A stretch of DNA of 64,000 nucleotides from Chryseolinea sp. (GTDB lineage: Bacteria > Bacteroidota > Bacteroidia > Cytophagales > Cyclobacteriaceae): positions 1 to 64,000 of the forward strand of contig JAICGJ010000009.1 in NCBI GenBank assembly GCA_025923195.1. Reading direction: 5' to 3'. This document shows, piece after piece, positions 31,872-37,848 of this stretch. Under the pieces are notes generated by a model, which searched no databases, was not told where the DNA came from, and saw only the letters and a list, made by a program, of their open reading frames with translations. Position 1 is the first letter of the stretch, and each line of letters starts with the position of its first letter. A program made the position numbers and the translations under genes.

Positions 31872-32472
31872 TATCAGCTGGTTGTGCAGCGGCTGCTCTT
31901 CAGACTATCGATATATGCAGTCCGTTGAATCCCGTCCGGATTGTATTGCAAAACTTGCTCCTGTACAGTTCGAAACGTCGTGGTATCATGCGAGTGTTGA
32001 CGTAGTCGGTAATCATATCAGCGGTCTATTGCTGATAAAGAATATGCCGGATAGCTCTTATAGGATCGTTTTTACCAATGAAGCTGGTGTGACGTTTTTC
32101 GACTTTGGGTTCTCGCGGGAGGGAACTTTTGCCGTATATAATGTCATCCATAAATTGGATAAAGGCCCGGTAATACATACGTTGCAACAGGATTTCGAAC
32201 TAATATTAGGTCTCCCATTTCGAAACGCATCTTATAAAACCTGGATAATGAACGACGAAGTTTTTTATGGCACGCGCCAAAAAAACGGAACTTCTTATTT
32301 CATTACCACCAAAGATTGTGCTTCTTTGCGCCGACTGGAATTGGGTTCTGCCCGAAAGCGTAAAACTACAGTTGAAGTTACAGGGCAGGGTTATCCCAGG
32401 CCGGAAAAAATTGAATTAAGACACTACGTTTTTGATATGCGGATCAAACTTACCCGCTTTGACAAGGAATGA
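31837..32472 (+). CDS. Predicted lipoprotein, possible DUF3261-like partner
   Basis: A 211-residue lipoprotein: signal MNRSRIPFLLFSISWLCSGC with the lipid-bearing cysteine at position 20. The mature protein is beta-rich and positionally equals the DUF3261-type lipoproteins that follow LolA-like genes in aryl-polyene clusters, suggesting a LolB-like acceptor at the outer membrane. The domain assignment rests on position and general pattern, not on a clear motif. It overlaps genes on both sides (35 and 4 bases), so it is part of one translationally coupled block. Confidence 0.72.
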   Translation: MNRSRIPFLLFSISWLCSGCSSDYRYMQSVESRPDCIAKLAPVQFETSWYHASVDVVGNHISGLLLIKNMPDSSYRIVFTNEAGVTFFDFGFSREGTFAVYNVIHKLDKGPVIHTLQQDFELILGLPFRNASYKTWIMNDEVFYGTRQKNGTSYFITTKDCASLRRLELGSARKRKTTVEVTGQGYPRPEKIELRHYVFDMRIKLTRFDKE

Positions 32473-32837
32473 TTCTGCTTAACGACTTTTATACACTTAC
32501 CGAAAAAGTTGAAGTTCCCGGTGTCGTGAAGGCAAAAATCGCCATTAACAAGAGACATCGGATTTTTGATGGACATTTTCCCGGGTTACCCGTTGTACCT
32601 GGTGTCTGCATGCTTCAGATAATAAGGGAGATTATGGAAGTAAGTTCGGGTCGGGTATTGAAGGTCACGGCCGCAGATAATATGAAATTCCTTTCCGTTA
32701 TCAACCCTGACCAGAACAACCAAGTAGAAGCCGTCATTAATTATGCAGAGGTCGCTGATAAGTTTTCAATTAATGCCACACTTTTTGCAGGAACAACAAC
32801 ATTTTTTAAATTAAAAGCAATCCTTCAAATCTCCTGA
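32469..32837 (+). CDS. FabZ-like 3-hydroxyacyl-ACP dehydratase
   Basis: A 122-residue hotdog protein. 'IFDGHFPGLPVVPGVCMLQ' is the FabA/FabZ active-site segment with the catalytic His; the Glu that follows in FabZ ('EALAQ') is replaced by 'IIREIME'. It ends 'FKLKAILQIS'. It would share dehydration steps with the protein at 22211, perhaps on different chain lengths. It overlaps the lipoprotein gene by four bases and the glycosyltransferase gene by one base. Confidence 0.85.
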   Translation: MILLNDFYTLTEKVEVPGVVKAKIAINKRHRIFDGHFPGLPVVPGVCMLQIIREIMEVSSGRVLKVTAADNMKFLSVINPDQNNQVEAVINYAEVADKFSINATLFAGTTTFFKLKAILQIS

Positions 32838-33649
32838 TGATACCGGACTTGCGCGAGATGTTCAAAAGACGAAACGTATGTGTGCTTATTCCTACATACA
32901 ATAATGAACAAACACTGGCACGCGTAATACAAAGTGTATTAACATTTACAGATCAGGTCATCGTAGTCAACGATGGGTCGACGGATAGCACGACCGTGGT
33001 GCTTCAGGAGTTTCCGCAGATAGAACTCGTGAGCTACTTGCAGAACAAAGGTAAGGGATATGCGCTACGGACAGGATTTCAGCGTGCAGTAGAGGCAGGG
33101 TATTCGTACGCAATCACAATCGATTCAGATGGACAACACTTCGCAGAAGACCTGGGTAAGTTTCTTATGAAACTTGAGAAGCACCCTGCAGCAATTATCG
33201 TAGGCGCCCGCAATATGGAACAGGCCAGCGTACCTGGCAAAAGCAGCTTTGGAAACAAGTTCTCTAATTTTTGGTTTTGGGTGGAGACAGGCATAAAAAT
33301 GAGTGATACTCAAAGCGGTTATCGGCTTTATCCGGTGAAACTCATGGAGCAGATGCGATTCTTAACAAACAAATTTGAGTTTGAAATTGAGGTGCTGGTG
33401 ACCTCTGCCTGGCGAGGAATCGAAATAGTTGAAGTTCCCGTTCGTGTATACTATGCAGAAAAGGAAAATCGGATTTCGCATTTCAGACCTTTTACGGACT
33501 TCACGCGAATCAGTATCCTCAATACCTTCCTTGTTATTATTGCGTTGCTTTACATAAAGCCTAGGGATTTTTTCCGAGGCATTAAAAAAAAAAATTCAGA
33601 CAATCGGTTTACGATCAACTTTTTGATCCCAACGAATCTGATTGGATAA
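32837..33649 (+). CDS. Glycosyltransferase family 2, probably the N-terminal part of a GT2-DUF2062 protein
   Basis: A 270-residue GT-A fold glycosyltransferase. Nucleotide-sugar motifs are 'CVLIPTYNNEQTLARVI', 'VVNDGSTDST' and 'TIDSDGQHF', in the order of dolichyl-phosphate mannosyltransferase-like enzymes. The last about 20 residues (after 'RGIKKK') look non-native: they follow an A11 run at 33584-33594. In the -1 frame after this run the sequence continues without a stop into the DUF2062 membrane domain at 33679. In related bacteria these two domains are often one protein. The gene therefore appears to be broken by, or to need, a frameshift. It may glycosylate the pigment or its lipid. Confidence 0.88.
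   Translation: MIPDLREMFKRRNVCVLIPTYNNEQTLARVIQSVLTFTDQVIVVNDGSTDSTTVVLQEFPQIELVSYLQNKGKGYALRTGFQRAVEAGYSYAITIDSDGQHFAEDLGKFLMKLEKHPAAIIVGARNMEQASVPGKSSFGNKFSNFWFWVETGIKMSDTQSGYRLYPVKLMEQMRFLTNKFEFEIEVLVTSAWRGIEIVEVPVRVYYAEKENRISHFRPFTDFTRISILNTFLVIIALLYIKPRDFFRGIKKKNSDNRFTINFLIPTNLIG
33584..33594 (+). other. A11 homopolymer, probable frameshift site
   Basis: Eleven consecutive A residues in the glycosyltransferase gene. With twelve the reading frame would run uninterrupted from 32837 to 34014. In the -1 frame the codons from 33586 to 34014 have no stop, while a TAA at 33583-33585 closes this frame immediately before the run, so the junction must be at or just after the run. Confidence 0.8.
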
Positions 33650-33678
33650 AAGCCTGTTCAATTGGGTTTGGTGTTTTC

Positions 33679-34014
33679 ATGGGTATTGTACCTGTGTGGG
33701 GATTTCAGCTAATCATCGCTATTACATTGGCCTTTCTCCTTCGGTTAAATAAAATATTAGTTATCCTGGCGGCGAATATTAGTATACCACCGATGATACC
33801 GCTGATTTTATTTCTTAGCCACCTCGCCGGATCAATTTGGATGGGCGACGATGCGCAACATATTTCTTTTAGCGATGAGATAACTTTGGAGCGTGTTAAA
33901 ACCAGCTTTGTTCAATACGTTTTGGGCGCCATTACACTGGCGTTTGCAGCGGGGATATTCTTTTTCGGCCTTACATATCTGGTATTGAAGTTTTTTAAGC
34001 GTCAGAAGATTTGA
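33679..34014 (+). CDS. DUF2062 membrane domain protein (probable C-terminal part of the glycosyltransferase gene)
   Basis: From the first ATG this encodes 111 residues with two to three membrane helices, but the frame is open back to 33586, and the upstream codons read 'SVYDQLFDPNESDWIKACSI' and then 'GFGVFMGIVPVWGFQ', which is the usual beginning of a DUF2062 domain. The ATG lies inside the conserved helix, so independent translation from 33679 would make a truncated domain. DUF2062 domains are found alone or fused behind GT2 domains. I regard this as the second half of the gene at 32837. The MMPL gene starts four bases after its stop. Confidence 0.8.
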   Translation: MGIVPVWGFQLIIAITLAFLLRLNKILVILAANISIPPMIPLILFLSHLAGSIWMGDDAQHISFSDEITLERVKTSFVQYVLGAITLAFAAGIFFFGLTYLVLKFFKRQKI

Positions 34015-34017
34015 TGT

Positions 34018-37000
34018 ATGGCAACGCTTTTCATAAATATTTATGAGTTTTTTAAGAAGCGAAAATTTCTTTTCTGGACGGCTTTTATTGTGACGTTGGG
34101 TTTGTTTGCAATCGGGGCTTCCCGGATTGCTCTGGAAGAAGATGTATCTAAGTTTTTTCCAGATGATGAACGCGTCGAAAAGTTGAGCTACGTTTTTCAG
34201 AATTCCAAGTTTGTTGAAAGGATCGTAGTTATGATTTCGGTGACCGACAGTGCCACTGCTCCTCAACCAGACAGTTTGGTTTCCTACGCTCAAGCGCTCG
34301 CCTCACGAATGGATCGTGAGTTGAAACCATTCATCAAAGAGCTCACTATACAGATCGATGATGAAAAGATTCTAGGACTGTTTGCAACCATTTATGATCA
34401 TTTACCCATTTTTCTGGATGAGCAAGACTATTCTAAGCTGGATTCACTCATTCGACCAGAGAACGTAAACAAGACATTGGAGAGTAACTATCGACAGCTG
34501 ATTTCACCTGCTGGCGTTTTAGTAAAAAGAATTATCGTAAAAGACCCGTTGGGTTTTTCCTTACTGCCGCTTCAAAAATTAAGACAGCTTCAATACGATG
34601 AAAATTTTGCACTATACGACGGCTATATCTTGACCAAGGATCGGCGGCATTTGGTCTTTTTTATTTCCCCAGTTTTTCCGCCAAATGACACCGGGAATAA
34701 TTCAAGGTTTGTAAATCAACTCGACGCCCTACTGAAAGATATGTCTTCTGACTATCCGAAGCTTCAAGCATCATATTTTGGTGCACCCGTCGTTGCCGCG
34801 GGTAATGCGCTACAATTACGGAAGGATTCGGCGGTCACGATGAGTCTCGTCATTGTTTTCCTGACAGCGTTTCTGATTGCATTCTTTAGGAAGAAGAGGA
34901 TACCATTTTTAATTTTAATTCCCGTGGTATTTGGTGCCTTGTTTTCGCTTTGTTGCATCTTCATGATAAAAGGATCGATCTCAATCCTGGCCATTGCGGC
35001 CGGTTCCGTGATCCTTGGTATCGCTGTTAATTATTCGCTACACTTTTTGTCTCACCTCAAGCATACCGGCAGTCACAAAGAAGTAATCCGAGACTTGGTA
35101 CGACCATTGACTATGGGAAGCGCCACTACAGTAGTCGCTTTTTTTTGCCTGCAATTTGCGAATGCCGCCGTACTTCGGGATGTTGGATTGTTTGCGGGAT
35201 TCAGTCTGATCGGCGCAGCGCTGTGCTCACTTATTTTCTTGCCTCATTTTATTCCGGAAAATTTGCTTGTAAATCAGAATGAGCGTTGGATCGAGCGGAC
35301 ATCACTTTCTGTTTTTGATTCTAACCGTTACGTTGCGCTTGTAATCCTGCTGGCAACTCCCGTCTTGCTGTACTTTGCAAGGCACGTGACTTTCAACAGT
35401 GACATGAACAAATTGAATTTCATGGTACCCGAATTGCGAGAGTCACAACGGCGTCTGGAAACACTCAATCGATCTTCGCTTACGTCGCTGTACGTTGTTT
35501 CTGACGCGGAAAATCTACAGTCTGCATTGCAAAAGAATGAGACAGTAACGCCGGTGCTGAGGTCACTGGAAAACGATAATAGAATTAATAAGTATTCTTC
35601 TGTCTCAACATTTCTTATATCGGATTCACTTCAGAGAATCAGAATATCAAGGTGGAACGACTTCTGGAAAACAAGAAAAGATACAGTTGCGAACGTTGTT
35701 AGGGTGAAGAGTAAGCAGCTCAGATTTTCCGAGCAGATCGTGCGAAATTTTGAATCGCTGCTTTCAAAAACTTATGTAGGGGGTGATTCTGCAGTTACAA
35801 ATCAGATCCGGGCCGCTTTTTTTGAGGACTACATTATTGAGAAAGATGATCAAGCAACCGTTATCTCTTTGGTTAATGTCAGTCCATCCGATAAAAATTT
35901 CGTTTACGAGCGATTGCGAAGTTATCCTGTTCACGCCTTTGATAGGCAGATGCTTACAAACCTTTTTGTGGAATATGTGAATGCGGACTTTAATTTCATT
36001 GTAACCTTTACAGCAGTCCTGGTCTTTTTTGCATTGCTGATCCTATACGGCAGAATCGAATTGACCCTAATCACGTTCCTTCCTATGCTGATAACCTGGA
36101 TCTGGATACTGGGAATCATGGCGCTAGCAGGAATTGAATTTAATATTATCAACATCATGGTCTCTACTTTCATCTTCGGTTTAGGAGATGATTATAGTAT
36201 TTTCACCATGGATGGATTGTTGCAGGAATACCGGCTGGGAAAGAAAACTCTGCCATCCATCCGGACTTCCATTTTCTTGTCAGCCGTCACAACCATTGCT
36301 GGCCTTGGCGTCCTAATCTTTGCACAGCATCCTGCACTACGATCCATTGCGACAATCTCTATTATTGGCATCACGTGCGTTTTCATTATGTCTCAAACCA
36401 TCGAACCATTCTTATTTAGGTGGCTTGTAACGAATCGGATAAAGAGGGGATTGACGCCTATGACATTTCGTGGAATTTTCCGAACCACCTTCACATATTC
36501 GCTGTTCGTTACGGGGGCCATTTTACTTACCCTCGTCGGATCAGTTCTAAGATTGGTTCCCTTTGGCAAGAAGTATATCAAGCTATTCTATCATTCAATG
36601 CTGCGGTTTTTTGCCCGCGTTGTCATTTATGTTGAACCCAGCGTTACAAAAAAAATAATAAATGTCAATTCCGATACGTTCTCCAGATCGAGTGTAATTA
36701 TCGCCAATCATTCTTCTGTTCTTGATATTCTGCTAACGATCATGCTGCATCCCAAACTTATTTTGGTGACCAATAAGTGGGTGTGGAATTCTCCCGTGTT
36801 TGGTAGTGTCGTCCGGTTGGCAGACTACTATCCAGTAAGCGAAGGAGTTGAAGATAGCATTGACAAACTGACGGATCGCTTTCGCGAAGGTTACTCATTG
36901 ATTGTGTTCCCCGAAGGTACCCGATCGGAAAATGGGATGATCAACCGGTTCCACAAAGGAGCCTTTTACATCGCAGAGCGATTCCAGCTTTCCGTGCAGC

Positions 37001-37848
37001 CATTACTTATCCACGGCGCTGCCGATGCTATTCCAAAAGGTACTTTTTACCTCAATGCGGGTCAGCTAACGCTCAAATTTCTTCGCCGGATAGACCATAC
37101 GGATCAAGCTTATGGACAGGGATATTCCGACCGCACAAAAACAATCAGCAAATATTTTAAGCAGCAGTTTGCATTGCTGAAGCGAGAAGTCGAATCGCCC
37201 AAGTACTTTTCACATAAACTTCTTTCAAATTACATTTACAAGGGCCCTGTTCTGGAATGGTATCTGCGCGTTAAGTTAAGACTCGAGAAGTATTATACAC
37301 CATTTCACGAATTGCTACCTCAAAGGGGGTCCATACTGGATCTGGGCTGTGGATATGGATTCCTCTGTTATATGCTTCAGTTTTTATCAGCTGATAGAAC
37401 AATTACGGGTGTGGACTATGATGAAGAAAAAATTGATGTTGCGAACCACGGCTATTTGAAGTCCGACAGGCTCCGGTTCTGTGCTGCAGACGTAAGAAAT
37501 TTTCCCTTGCAAAAATATGATGGCATCGTCTTAAGCGACGTTTTGCATTATCTTCCTTCTCTTGCACAAGAAACTTTGTTGGGGCAGGCTCTTGATGCGC
37601 TTAACCAAGACGGTATTCTGGTGATTAGAGAAGGAATTGTTGATCTTAGAGAGCGGCATCAAGGGACTCAGATTACGGAGTTTTTTAGTGTAAAACTCTT
37701 GAAGTTTAATAAGTCCGTCAACGCGCTTAATTTTTTATCGGGTGAAACCATTAAGAGGATAGCGAATAATAAGGGATTTACCGTAGAGGTCGACGATGAT
37801 GCAAAATATACCTCGAATGTTATTTTTGTAATAAGGAAAAAGCATTGA
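34018..37848 (+). CDS. MMPL exporter - PlsC acyltransferase - methyltransferase fusion
   Basis: A 1276-residue three-part protein. Residues about 1-850 form an RND/MMPL-type exporter with two repeats, each one helix, a periplasmic loop ('EEDVSKFFPDDERVE' in the first) and a bundle of five helices. Residues about 860-1060 are a PlsC-like acyltransferase with HX4D in 'IANHSSVLDI' (His near 898) and 'VFPEGTRSENG'. Residues about 1100-1276 are a class I methyltransferase with 'ILDLGCGYGF'. MMPL proteins move lipids and polyketides across the inner membrane, so the fusion would couple acylation and methylation of the product to its export. Separate genes encode such parts in Proteobacterial aryl-polyene clusters. 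Confidence 0.9.
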   Translation: MATLFINIYEFFKKRKFLFWTAFIVTLGLFAIGASRIALEEDVSKFFPDDERVEKLSYVFQNSKFVERIVVMISVTDSATAPQPDSLVSYAQALASRMDRELKPFIKELTIQIDDEKILGLFATIYDHLPIFLDEQDYSKLDSLIRPENVNKTLESNYRQLISPAGVLVKRIIVKDPLGFSLLPLQKLRQLQYDENFALYDGYILTKDRRHLVFFISPVFPPNDTGNNSRFVNQLDALLKDMSSDYPKLQASYFGAPVVAAGNALQLRKDSAVTMSLVIVFLTAFLIAFFRKKRIPFLILIPVVFGALFSLCCIFMIKGSISILAIAAGSVILGIAVNYSLHFLSHLKHTGSHKEVIRDLVRPLTMGSATTVVAFFCLQFANAAVLRDVGLFAGFSLIGAALCSLIFLPHFIPENLLVNQNERWIERTSLSVFDSNRYVALVILLATPVLLYFARHVTFNSDMNKLNFMVPELRESQRRLETLNRSSLTSLYVVSDAENLQSALQKNETVTPVLRSLENDNRINKYSSVSTFLISDSLQRIRISRWNDFWKTRKDTVANVVRVKSKQLRFSEQIVRNFESLLSKTYVGGDSAVTNQIRAAFFEDYIIEKDDQATVISLVNVSPSDKNFVYERLRSYPVHAFDRQMLTNLFVEYVNADFNFIVTFTAVLVFFALLILYGRIELTLITFLPMLITWIWILGIMALAGIEFNIINIMVSTFIFGLGDDYSIFTMDGLLQEYRLGKKTLPSIRTSIFLSAVTTIAGLGVLIFAQHPALRSIATISIIGITCVFIMSQTIEPFLFRWLVTNRIKRGLTPMTFRGIFRTTFTYSLFVTGAILLTLVGSVLRLVPFGKKYIKLFYHSMLRFFARVVIYVEPSVTKKIINVNSDTFSRSSVIIANHSSVLDILLTIMLHPKLILVTNKWVWNSPVFGSVVRLADYYPVSEGVEDSIDKLTDRFREGYSLIVFPEGTRSENGMINRFHKGAFYIAERFQLSVQPLLIHGAADAIPKGTFYLNAGQLTLKFLRRIDHTDQAYGQGYSDRTKTISKYFKQQFALLKREVESPKYFSHKLLSNYIYKGPVLEWYLRVKLRLEKYYTPFHELLPQRGSILDLGCGYGFLCYMLQFLSADRTITGVDYDEEKIDVANHGYLKSDRLRFCAADVRNFPLQKYDGIVLSDVLHYLPSLAQETLLGQALDALNQDGILVIREGIVDLRERHQGTQITEFFSVKLLKFNKSVNALNFLSGETIKRIANNKGFTVEVDDDAKYTSNVIFVIRKKH

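Follow-up and report, generated by a model that had tools for sequence, protein, structure and literature searches.

Insect endosymbionts reportedly carry ancient frameshifts in poly-A tracts that have been kept. The closest described case is dnaX, for which passages of PMC3711429 give a run of nine A's in Thermus, a run of ten in a two-ORF dnaX, and A AAA AAG in Escherichia coli. In the same passages, the shift measured with E. coli cassettes is 63% for 11 A's, 40% for 9 and 10% for 7, and a homopolymer of about eight or more serves as a criterion for slippage (PMC3711429). In tssM1 of Citrobacter rodentium, an A11 run lies 28 nt before the stop of the shorter frame, and slippage of the polymerase makes a second, full-length product, with evidence from mass spectrometry; the authors found only one further tssM carrying such a run, tssM3 of Yersinia, in which the product of slippage is the shorter form (PMC4256274).

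Here we analyse a gene of Bacteroidota in which a GT2 glycosyltransferase and the membrane domain DUF2062 meet at a run of A's. With some confidence we take this junction for a conserved recoding (slippage) site within one gene, and neither for a pair of genes nor for an error. A literature search confined to main texts free of subscription, and covering transcriptional slippage in Bacteroidetes/Bacteroidota, DUF2062 with glycosyltransferases, dnaX slippage in Bacteroidetes and frameshift surveys, gave nothing on a GT2-DUF2062 gene; the main text of PMC3711429 has 'glycosyl' once, for a DNA glycosylase.

Layout of the locus and selection on its second frame

In the window, the whole stretch of 64,000 nucleotides of Chryseolinea sp. 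DNA analysed here, all features of the locus lie on the forward strand. A FabA-like gene (32469-32837) is immediately followed by the GT2 frame (PF00535; 32837-33649, 270 aa), which meets eleven A's at 33584-33594, reads through them as ATT AAA AAA AAA AAT TCA, and ends, stop included, in a tail past the lysines (33593-33649). The -1 frame carries DUF2062 (PF09835) and is open from the run to a TGA at 34012-34014 (33586-34014), its sequence from the run onwards being KKKFRQSVYDQLFDPNESDWIKACSIGFGVFMGIVPVWGFQL. Immediately downstream lies an MMPL/acyltransferase/methyltransferase gene (34018-37848), a single frame of 1276 aa that holds all three domains; like the FabA-like gene, it is a conserved neighbour. 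The Pfam matches cover residues 15-169 of the first piece (PF00535, 1.2e-25) and residues 22-137 of the second (PF09835, 1.4e-17); an NCBIfam match of DUF2062 to BspA scored 28.9 bits against a cut-off of 300 and was set aside. A second DUF2062 match occurs in the same genome (G000:C6:12134-12550, minus strand), in an open frame of 173 aa.

The DUF2062 frame is closed at the start of the run by a TAA (33583-33585), so that only a shift gives access to it from upstream. The same TAA stands in 17 of the 19 split sequences of the window's clade (see below), and in the other two (L009 and L027) the frame is open 15 and 88 nt further upstream. The first ATG of the frame, the methionine of a conserved FMG (33679-33681), begins its first ATG-started ORF (33679-34014); between the run and 33679 the window has no ATG, GTG or TTG in this frame. 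All four of these elements (run, GT2 frame, TAA, open -1 frame) agree with the original prediction, which was made from the letters of the window.

This prediction also held that DUF2062 coding starts directly past the run, well before any ATG, and that the GT2 frame ends in 18 codons of unrelated appearance. Both statements agree with a comparison of the 78 nt between the run and FMG in 17 of the 19 clade rows (L164 and L166, which have a three-codon insertion, were omitted). At the three codon positions of the DUF2062 frame, pairwise differences amount to 0.36/0.21/0.63, amino acid identity is 0.53 in the DUF2062 frame against 0.30 in the GT2 frame, stops number 0 of 425 codons in the former against 24 of 425 in the latter, and mean pN and pS in the DUF2062 frame are 0.28 and 0.76 (137 of 171 pairs). 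By these measures, the DUF2062-frame codons directly past the run are under purifying selection, from upstream of 33679, and the GT2-frame tail is not conserved: it varies between species in sequence and length, and the GT2 stop falls anywhere from 2 to 119 nt past the run. The short product would consist of the GT2 domain, three lysines and 18 unconserved residues.

The clade of split genes and its fused relatives

GT2 homologues were drawn from 59 relatives and from 390 order, 390 family and 395 phylum genomes, in draws that overlap, together with 80 named loci, the best 80 of 559. The first sample of 170 homologue loci, less 3 without DUF2062 and 16 repeats, comprises 151 distinct sequences that hold both domains; the counts exclude L001-L004 and L124-L153, which are A-run loci and not homologues. 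The second sample of 162 further loci, less 7 repeats and 7 without DUF2062, comprises 148; here 80 places were read besides the loci given by the search, and the unread matches fall mostly in one family (f25). We count as fused any row with DUF2062 in the GT2 frame, including L122 and L279, in both of which a stop lies close to where the matched stretch begins. A search of plasmids gave no match.

In the first sample, both domains share one frame in 127 sequences, and DUF2062 is shifted to -1 in 21 and to +1 in 3. Nineteen of the 21 form one clade together with two fused rows (21 rows), with an SH-aLRT of 84 in a tree of GT2 only (131 of the 151 rows, GT2 identity at least 57%) and bootstrap/SH-aLRT values of 100/98 in a tree of six concatenated proteins (34 rows, 21 of the clade and 13 hand-picked fused outgroup rows). 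The clade includes the genus of the window (named Chryseolinea; 6/6 genomes) and the genus codes g17, g24, g54, g182 and g190; Ohtaekwangia koreensis, in g182, carries the split gene (L023, the same as L160). All 19 sequences are split in phase -1, with a run of ten A's in 15 and of eleven in four. The phase is constant while the length varies because the base beside the run differs, after it in L005-L007 and before it in L009, with no bases gained or lost. The lysine codons at the junction are AAA in 57/57 cases, as compared with 210 AAA to 165 AAG among the 375 elsewhere in the same genes, and no other A10 or T10 occurs in 80.6 kb of clade loci. L163 and L167, the two members of the clade that lack the run, have both domains fused in one frame at this locus, among the same neighbours. 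The 34-row tree implies three state changes, which fit either two re-fusions or one re-fusion and one new split. Within the clade the break and the run are conserved, and outside it the fused form is the usual one, as an alignment of homologues, proposed with the original prediction, brings out.

The second sample adds two -1 splits, L283 (A10) and L290 (A9), whose junctions near 2236 and 2221 belong to family f25, outside the clade. Across both samples, the splits that sit on an A run go to -1 in 23 of 24 cases, 19 of them from the one clade; L105 has a +1 break at an A11 in one draft genome, possibly by error. Two candidates were rejected as splits at a run: in L123 the break falls within DUF2062, and L060/L098 (one gene; L060 is a MAG) shifts to +1 near a T7, has no A run there, and is probably an error. 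In genus g78, L104 (A11, fused) and L107 (A10, split) differ by one A at a junction near 2242. The loss of one base from an in-frame A11, as in this pair, neutralised by slippage and then retained, is a plain history that fits part of the data.

The own genome offers a control. In its 6.57 Mb, A11 occurs four times, and none of the other three splits a long frame. There are 32 distinct runs of ten or more A's, of which only two part frames of at least 300 nt upstream and downstream in different phases: that of the GT2-DUF2062 gene and that of dnaX (a few runs lie near a contig end, for example with ~137 nt on one side in C239, where splits could be missed). This dnaX (G000:C116:17133-18260, minus strand; L206) is split at an A10 with its downstream part in the -1 frame. 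The search for dnaX covered 21 clade genomes, one of which (G667) had no match; the split at A10 recurs in the same direction in 19 of the 20 matched ones (L205-L224), and the gene of G556 is in frame at an A11. A gene resembling DsbD by eye is split at A11 in L133 (G001) and in frame at A10 in L125 (G003), near 1500, which may be error or tolerated slippage.

The fused relatives keep the run as well. Where they have three lysines at the junction, all three codons are AAA in 61 of 63 rows (expected 28.5, sd 3.7, from the loci's own codon use), and still in 19/20 when the rows are thinned to GT2 DNA identity below 0.7. The same triplet elsewhere in these first-sample loci is all AAA in 3/40 cases, and at four conserved positions with a single lysine in the same GT2s, AAA accounts for 54-87%. 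In the second sample the junction is all AAA in 73 of 78 rows (expected 34.6, sd 4.1), with 0/14 elsewhere. Six of the seven exceptions read AAA AAA AAG (L106, L110 and four of the five in the second sample).

Stops past the run are also placed in a particular manner. In the first sample, the first -1 stop comes at a median of 2 codons (background 7) and the first +1 stop at a median of 6 (background 10), so that early stops are there not peculiar to the -1 frame. A -1 TAA arises past the run because the second codon ends in T ahead of AA, and such T-ending codons were chosen in 43/46 cases (expected 25.6, sd 2.9), and in 21/23 after thinning to 12-mer sharing below 0.05 (expected 12.2, sd 2.1). 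This pattern was originally found after looking; it and the nine-A rule were then written down as predictions before the second sample was read, where T-ending codons are weaker yet hold (46/58, expected 30.4, sd 3.3; thinned to 12-mer sharing below 0.10, 33/45, expected 22.7, sd 2.8). In that sample, -1 stops fall within three codons in 72% of rows against a background of 33%, and +1 stops in 9% against 25%. The rows are related by descent, and these signals survive thinning, which removes ancestry only in part.

The run does not extend to GT2 homologues without DUF2062: nine A's are found in none of the nine nearer ones (L116, L251 and seven of the second sample), nor in the distant L015 and L016. 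Those of the second sample with no DUF2062 after them are L358 and L363 (g357, 2/2 matched genomes), L376-L378 (g598, 3/3), L291 and L412. Among the 273 distinct one-frame rows (127 and 146 from the two samples), 126 have no run of nine A's; with the two clade members that lack it, this suggests that a short form made by slippage is not needed everywhere.

The place of the lysines can be seen in an AlphaFold model of the fused L163 protein (mean pLDDT 91, pTM 0.73). They correspond to residues 248-250, within a loop (248-251) that follows the C-terminal helix of the GT2 (216-247), which suggests that the short form would comprise the GT2 domain in full. The FMG methionine (Met 280) lies inside a predicted helix (267-282), the first of DUF2062, which initiation at 33679 would cut.

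Proposed recoding and its alternatives

The comparisons establish, at the level of sequence, a conserved break, a conserved run and phase, and selection. The following mechanism would best explain them. Ordinary reading would end soon past the run and give the GT2 alone; a slip on the A's into the -1 frame, by one extra A in the mRNA or by a -1 shift of the ribosome, would give the GT2 fused to the membrane domain DUF2062. In the clade of the window, slippage would thus make the fusion. In many fused relatives, where at least nine A's are kept at the same place, often with a -1 stop two codons on, a slip would yield the short form. The recoding site would then be older than the clade, in which the default frame would have flipped. 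Two features of programmed transcriptional slippage are found: a homopolymer of about eight or more at the frame transition (A10/A11 in 19/19), and a conserved transition with selection on the downstream frame. Slippage presumably occurs in the cell, and both products probably matter. On a broader proposal we are evenly divided: that this is an ancient GT2-DUF2062 recoding site in Bacteroidota pigment-type clusters with two opposite states, as in dnaX, the fused genes slipping to a -1 stop to give the GT2 alone and the Chryseolinea/Ohtaekwangia clade slipping to give the fusion, with both products wanted, the free and the membrane-tethered enzyme in a set ratio.

We lean towards RNA polymerase as the main agent of the slip, a preference that follows from the run of 10-11 A's never broken by AAG in the clade and from the lack of RNA structure; what speaks for the ribosome are the exceptional fused rows that read AAA AAA AAG and the -1 stop close behind the run. 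The same two products by -1 ribosomal frameshifting, on the heptamer A AAA AAA that the run contains in the GT2 frame (of the type X XXY YYZ), are a serious if less favoured possibility. The prevailing -1 direction fits it, but polymerase slippage that adds an A yields the same direction. Six of the seven nine-A exceptions retain the heptamer A AAA AAG, and the nearby -1 stop recalls E. coli dnaX, but all 19 clade rows keep 10-11 A's where seven would do. Ribosomal shifting at dnaX has a Shine-Dalgarno-like stimulator roughly 10 nt before the slip site. Here, a match of at least four bases to AAGGAGGT occurs within 25 nt before the run in 12/19 clade rows, against 20/70 fused rows with the run, but in those 12 rows 2 or 4 nt separate the GGAG-like stretch from the run, a shorter distance than at dnaX; the stretch may reflect no more than Arg-Ser codons. 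No conserved downstream stem-loop was found, either by folding the 19 rows (mean z 0.02) or by seeking compensatory pairs in a 13-row alignment (12 of the 19 clade sequences, as L008 and L018 are the same gene), under a model that leaves out pseudoknots. This disfavours ribosomal shifting driven by structure and proves nothing for RNA polymerase.

It is rather unlikely that the fused relatives keep the run for another reason, such as a mutational microsatellite that the linker tolerates or pausing of the ribosome on AAA lysines ahead of the membrane domain, and that the clade only exploits it. The position of the run, in the loop that links the GT2 helix to DUF2062, would suit this explanation, but the -1 TAA soon past the run is enriched through codon choice in two samples, and triple lysines elsewhere seldom have nine A's.

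Phase variation by replication slippage, an on/off switch as the original prediction had suggested, is very improbable. The homopolymer is long, and L104 and L107 are one A apart within one genus; yet the 19 clade rows, each from one genome per species, are out of frame in a single phase whether the run has 10 or 11 A's, and the phase is kept by the differing flanking base.

Still less credible are two separate genes, the GT2 ending at 33649 and DUF2062 starting at 33679 by its own or by coupled initiation. An ATG is indeed present 29 nt past the GT2 stop, but it falls inside a predicted helix of a fused relative, selection begins upstream of it, and in 11 of the 19 clade rows the DUF2062 frame offers no start codon (ATG, GTG or TTG) between the run and FMG (the other eight do have one, L027 also above the run). 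Homologues made of two genes throughout with a start at 33679, and a GT2 C-terminus matching relatives up to 33649, were looked for; what was found instead was the one-frame form outside the clade, scattered GT2 stops and an unconserved tail. Sequencing error or a pseudogene can be practically discounted: single-genome splits at A runs in draft assemblies of 180-550 contigs (L105, L107, L117) could be errors, but the clade's break, for which error or a fresh mutation had been one suggestion, recurs with persisting selection in 19 distinct sequences, which refutes this reading for the clade. They come from the one-contig genome G001, from MAGs and from named isolates (Chryseolinea sp. H1M3-3, Chryseolinea lacunae, Ohtaekwangia koreensis DSM 25262). 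Of the earlier interpretation, slippage survives, with break and run conserved in the clade; error and fresh mutation do not, and the switch is unsupported.

Comparison with known enzymes, pigment clusters and slippage systems

The GT2 domain resembles polyisoprenyl-phosphate glycosyltransferases, with ArnC and DPM synthase matched in sequence. Its nearest solved folds are those of ArnC, GtrB and DPM synthase, at a model-normalised TM score of at most 0.48 among the 50 matches listed. The membrane parts of these three enzymes are not known to be DUF2062. Around the split gene, Pfam identifies a polysaccharide deacetylase, LolA, the FabA-like gene and the MMPL/acyltransferase/methyltransferase gene, and an acyl carrier protein and ketosynthases were recognised by eye from the translations. 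In the section of PMC3992019 on the flexirubin cluster, flxP-flxU (deacetylase, acyltransferase, LolA, glycosyltransferase, exporter) are proposed to serve pigment export. All members of this set are present at the locus, acyltransferase and MMPL in one gene. The GT2 and GT2-DUF2062 products may serve a flexirubin-type pigment pathway. Ohtaekwangia reference strains are described as flexirubin-positive in a passage of PMC9296434, and O. koreensis carries the split gene, which may go together with the pigment.

Reading from stop to stop calls two genes at this locus and overlooks the fused protein. If the proposed recoding is true, a cluster found across many Bacteroidota uses slippage to obtain two forms of an enzyme from a single gene, and a single gene family offers both dnaX-type layouts together with natural controls that have lost the run, so that the evolution of slippage sites becomes directly testable.

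The likeness to known slippage systems is threefold. First, as in the dnaX genes covered by those passages of PMC3711429, poly-A stands at the frame transition, and both layouts occur: short by default and long via the -1 frame in the window's clade, long by default with a close -1 stop in the fused relatives. The own genome's dnaX, with its A10, has the layout that is short by default and long by slippage. The GT2-DUF2062 gene is nevertheless a different one, in a pigment-type cluster, and slippage in it is predicted from sequence. Second, tssM1, as described in the part of PMC4256274 on its run, shares an A11 near the stop of the shorter frame and a full-length product obtained through slippage, but is another gene in another phylum, whereas the site described here is common to a clade. 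Third, the poly-A frameshifts reported from insect endosymbionts are likewise said to be kept by selection over long times; in contrast, the Bacteroidota loci have 41-58% G+C, and the run persists even in genes whose frame is intact.
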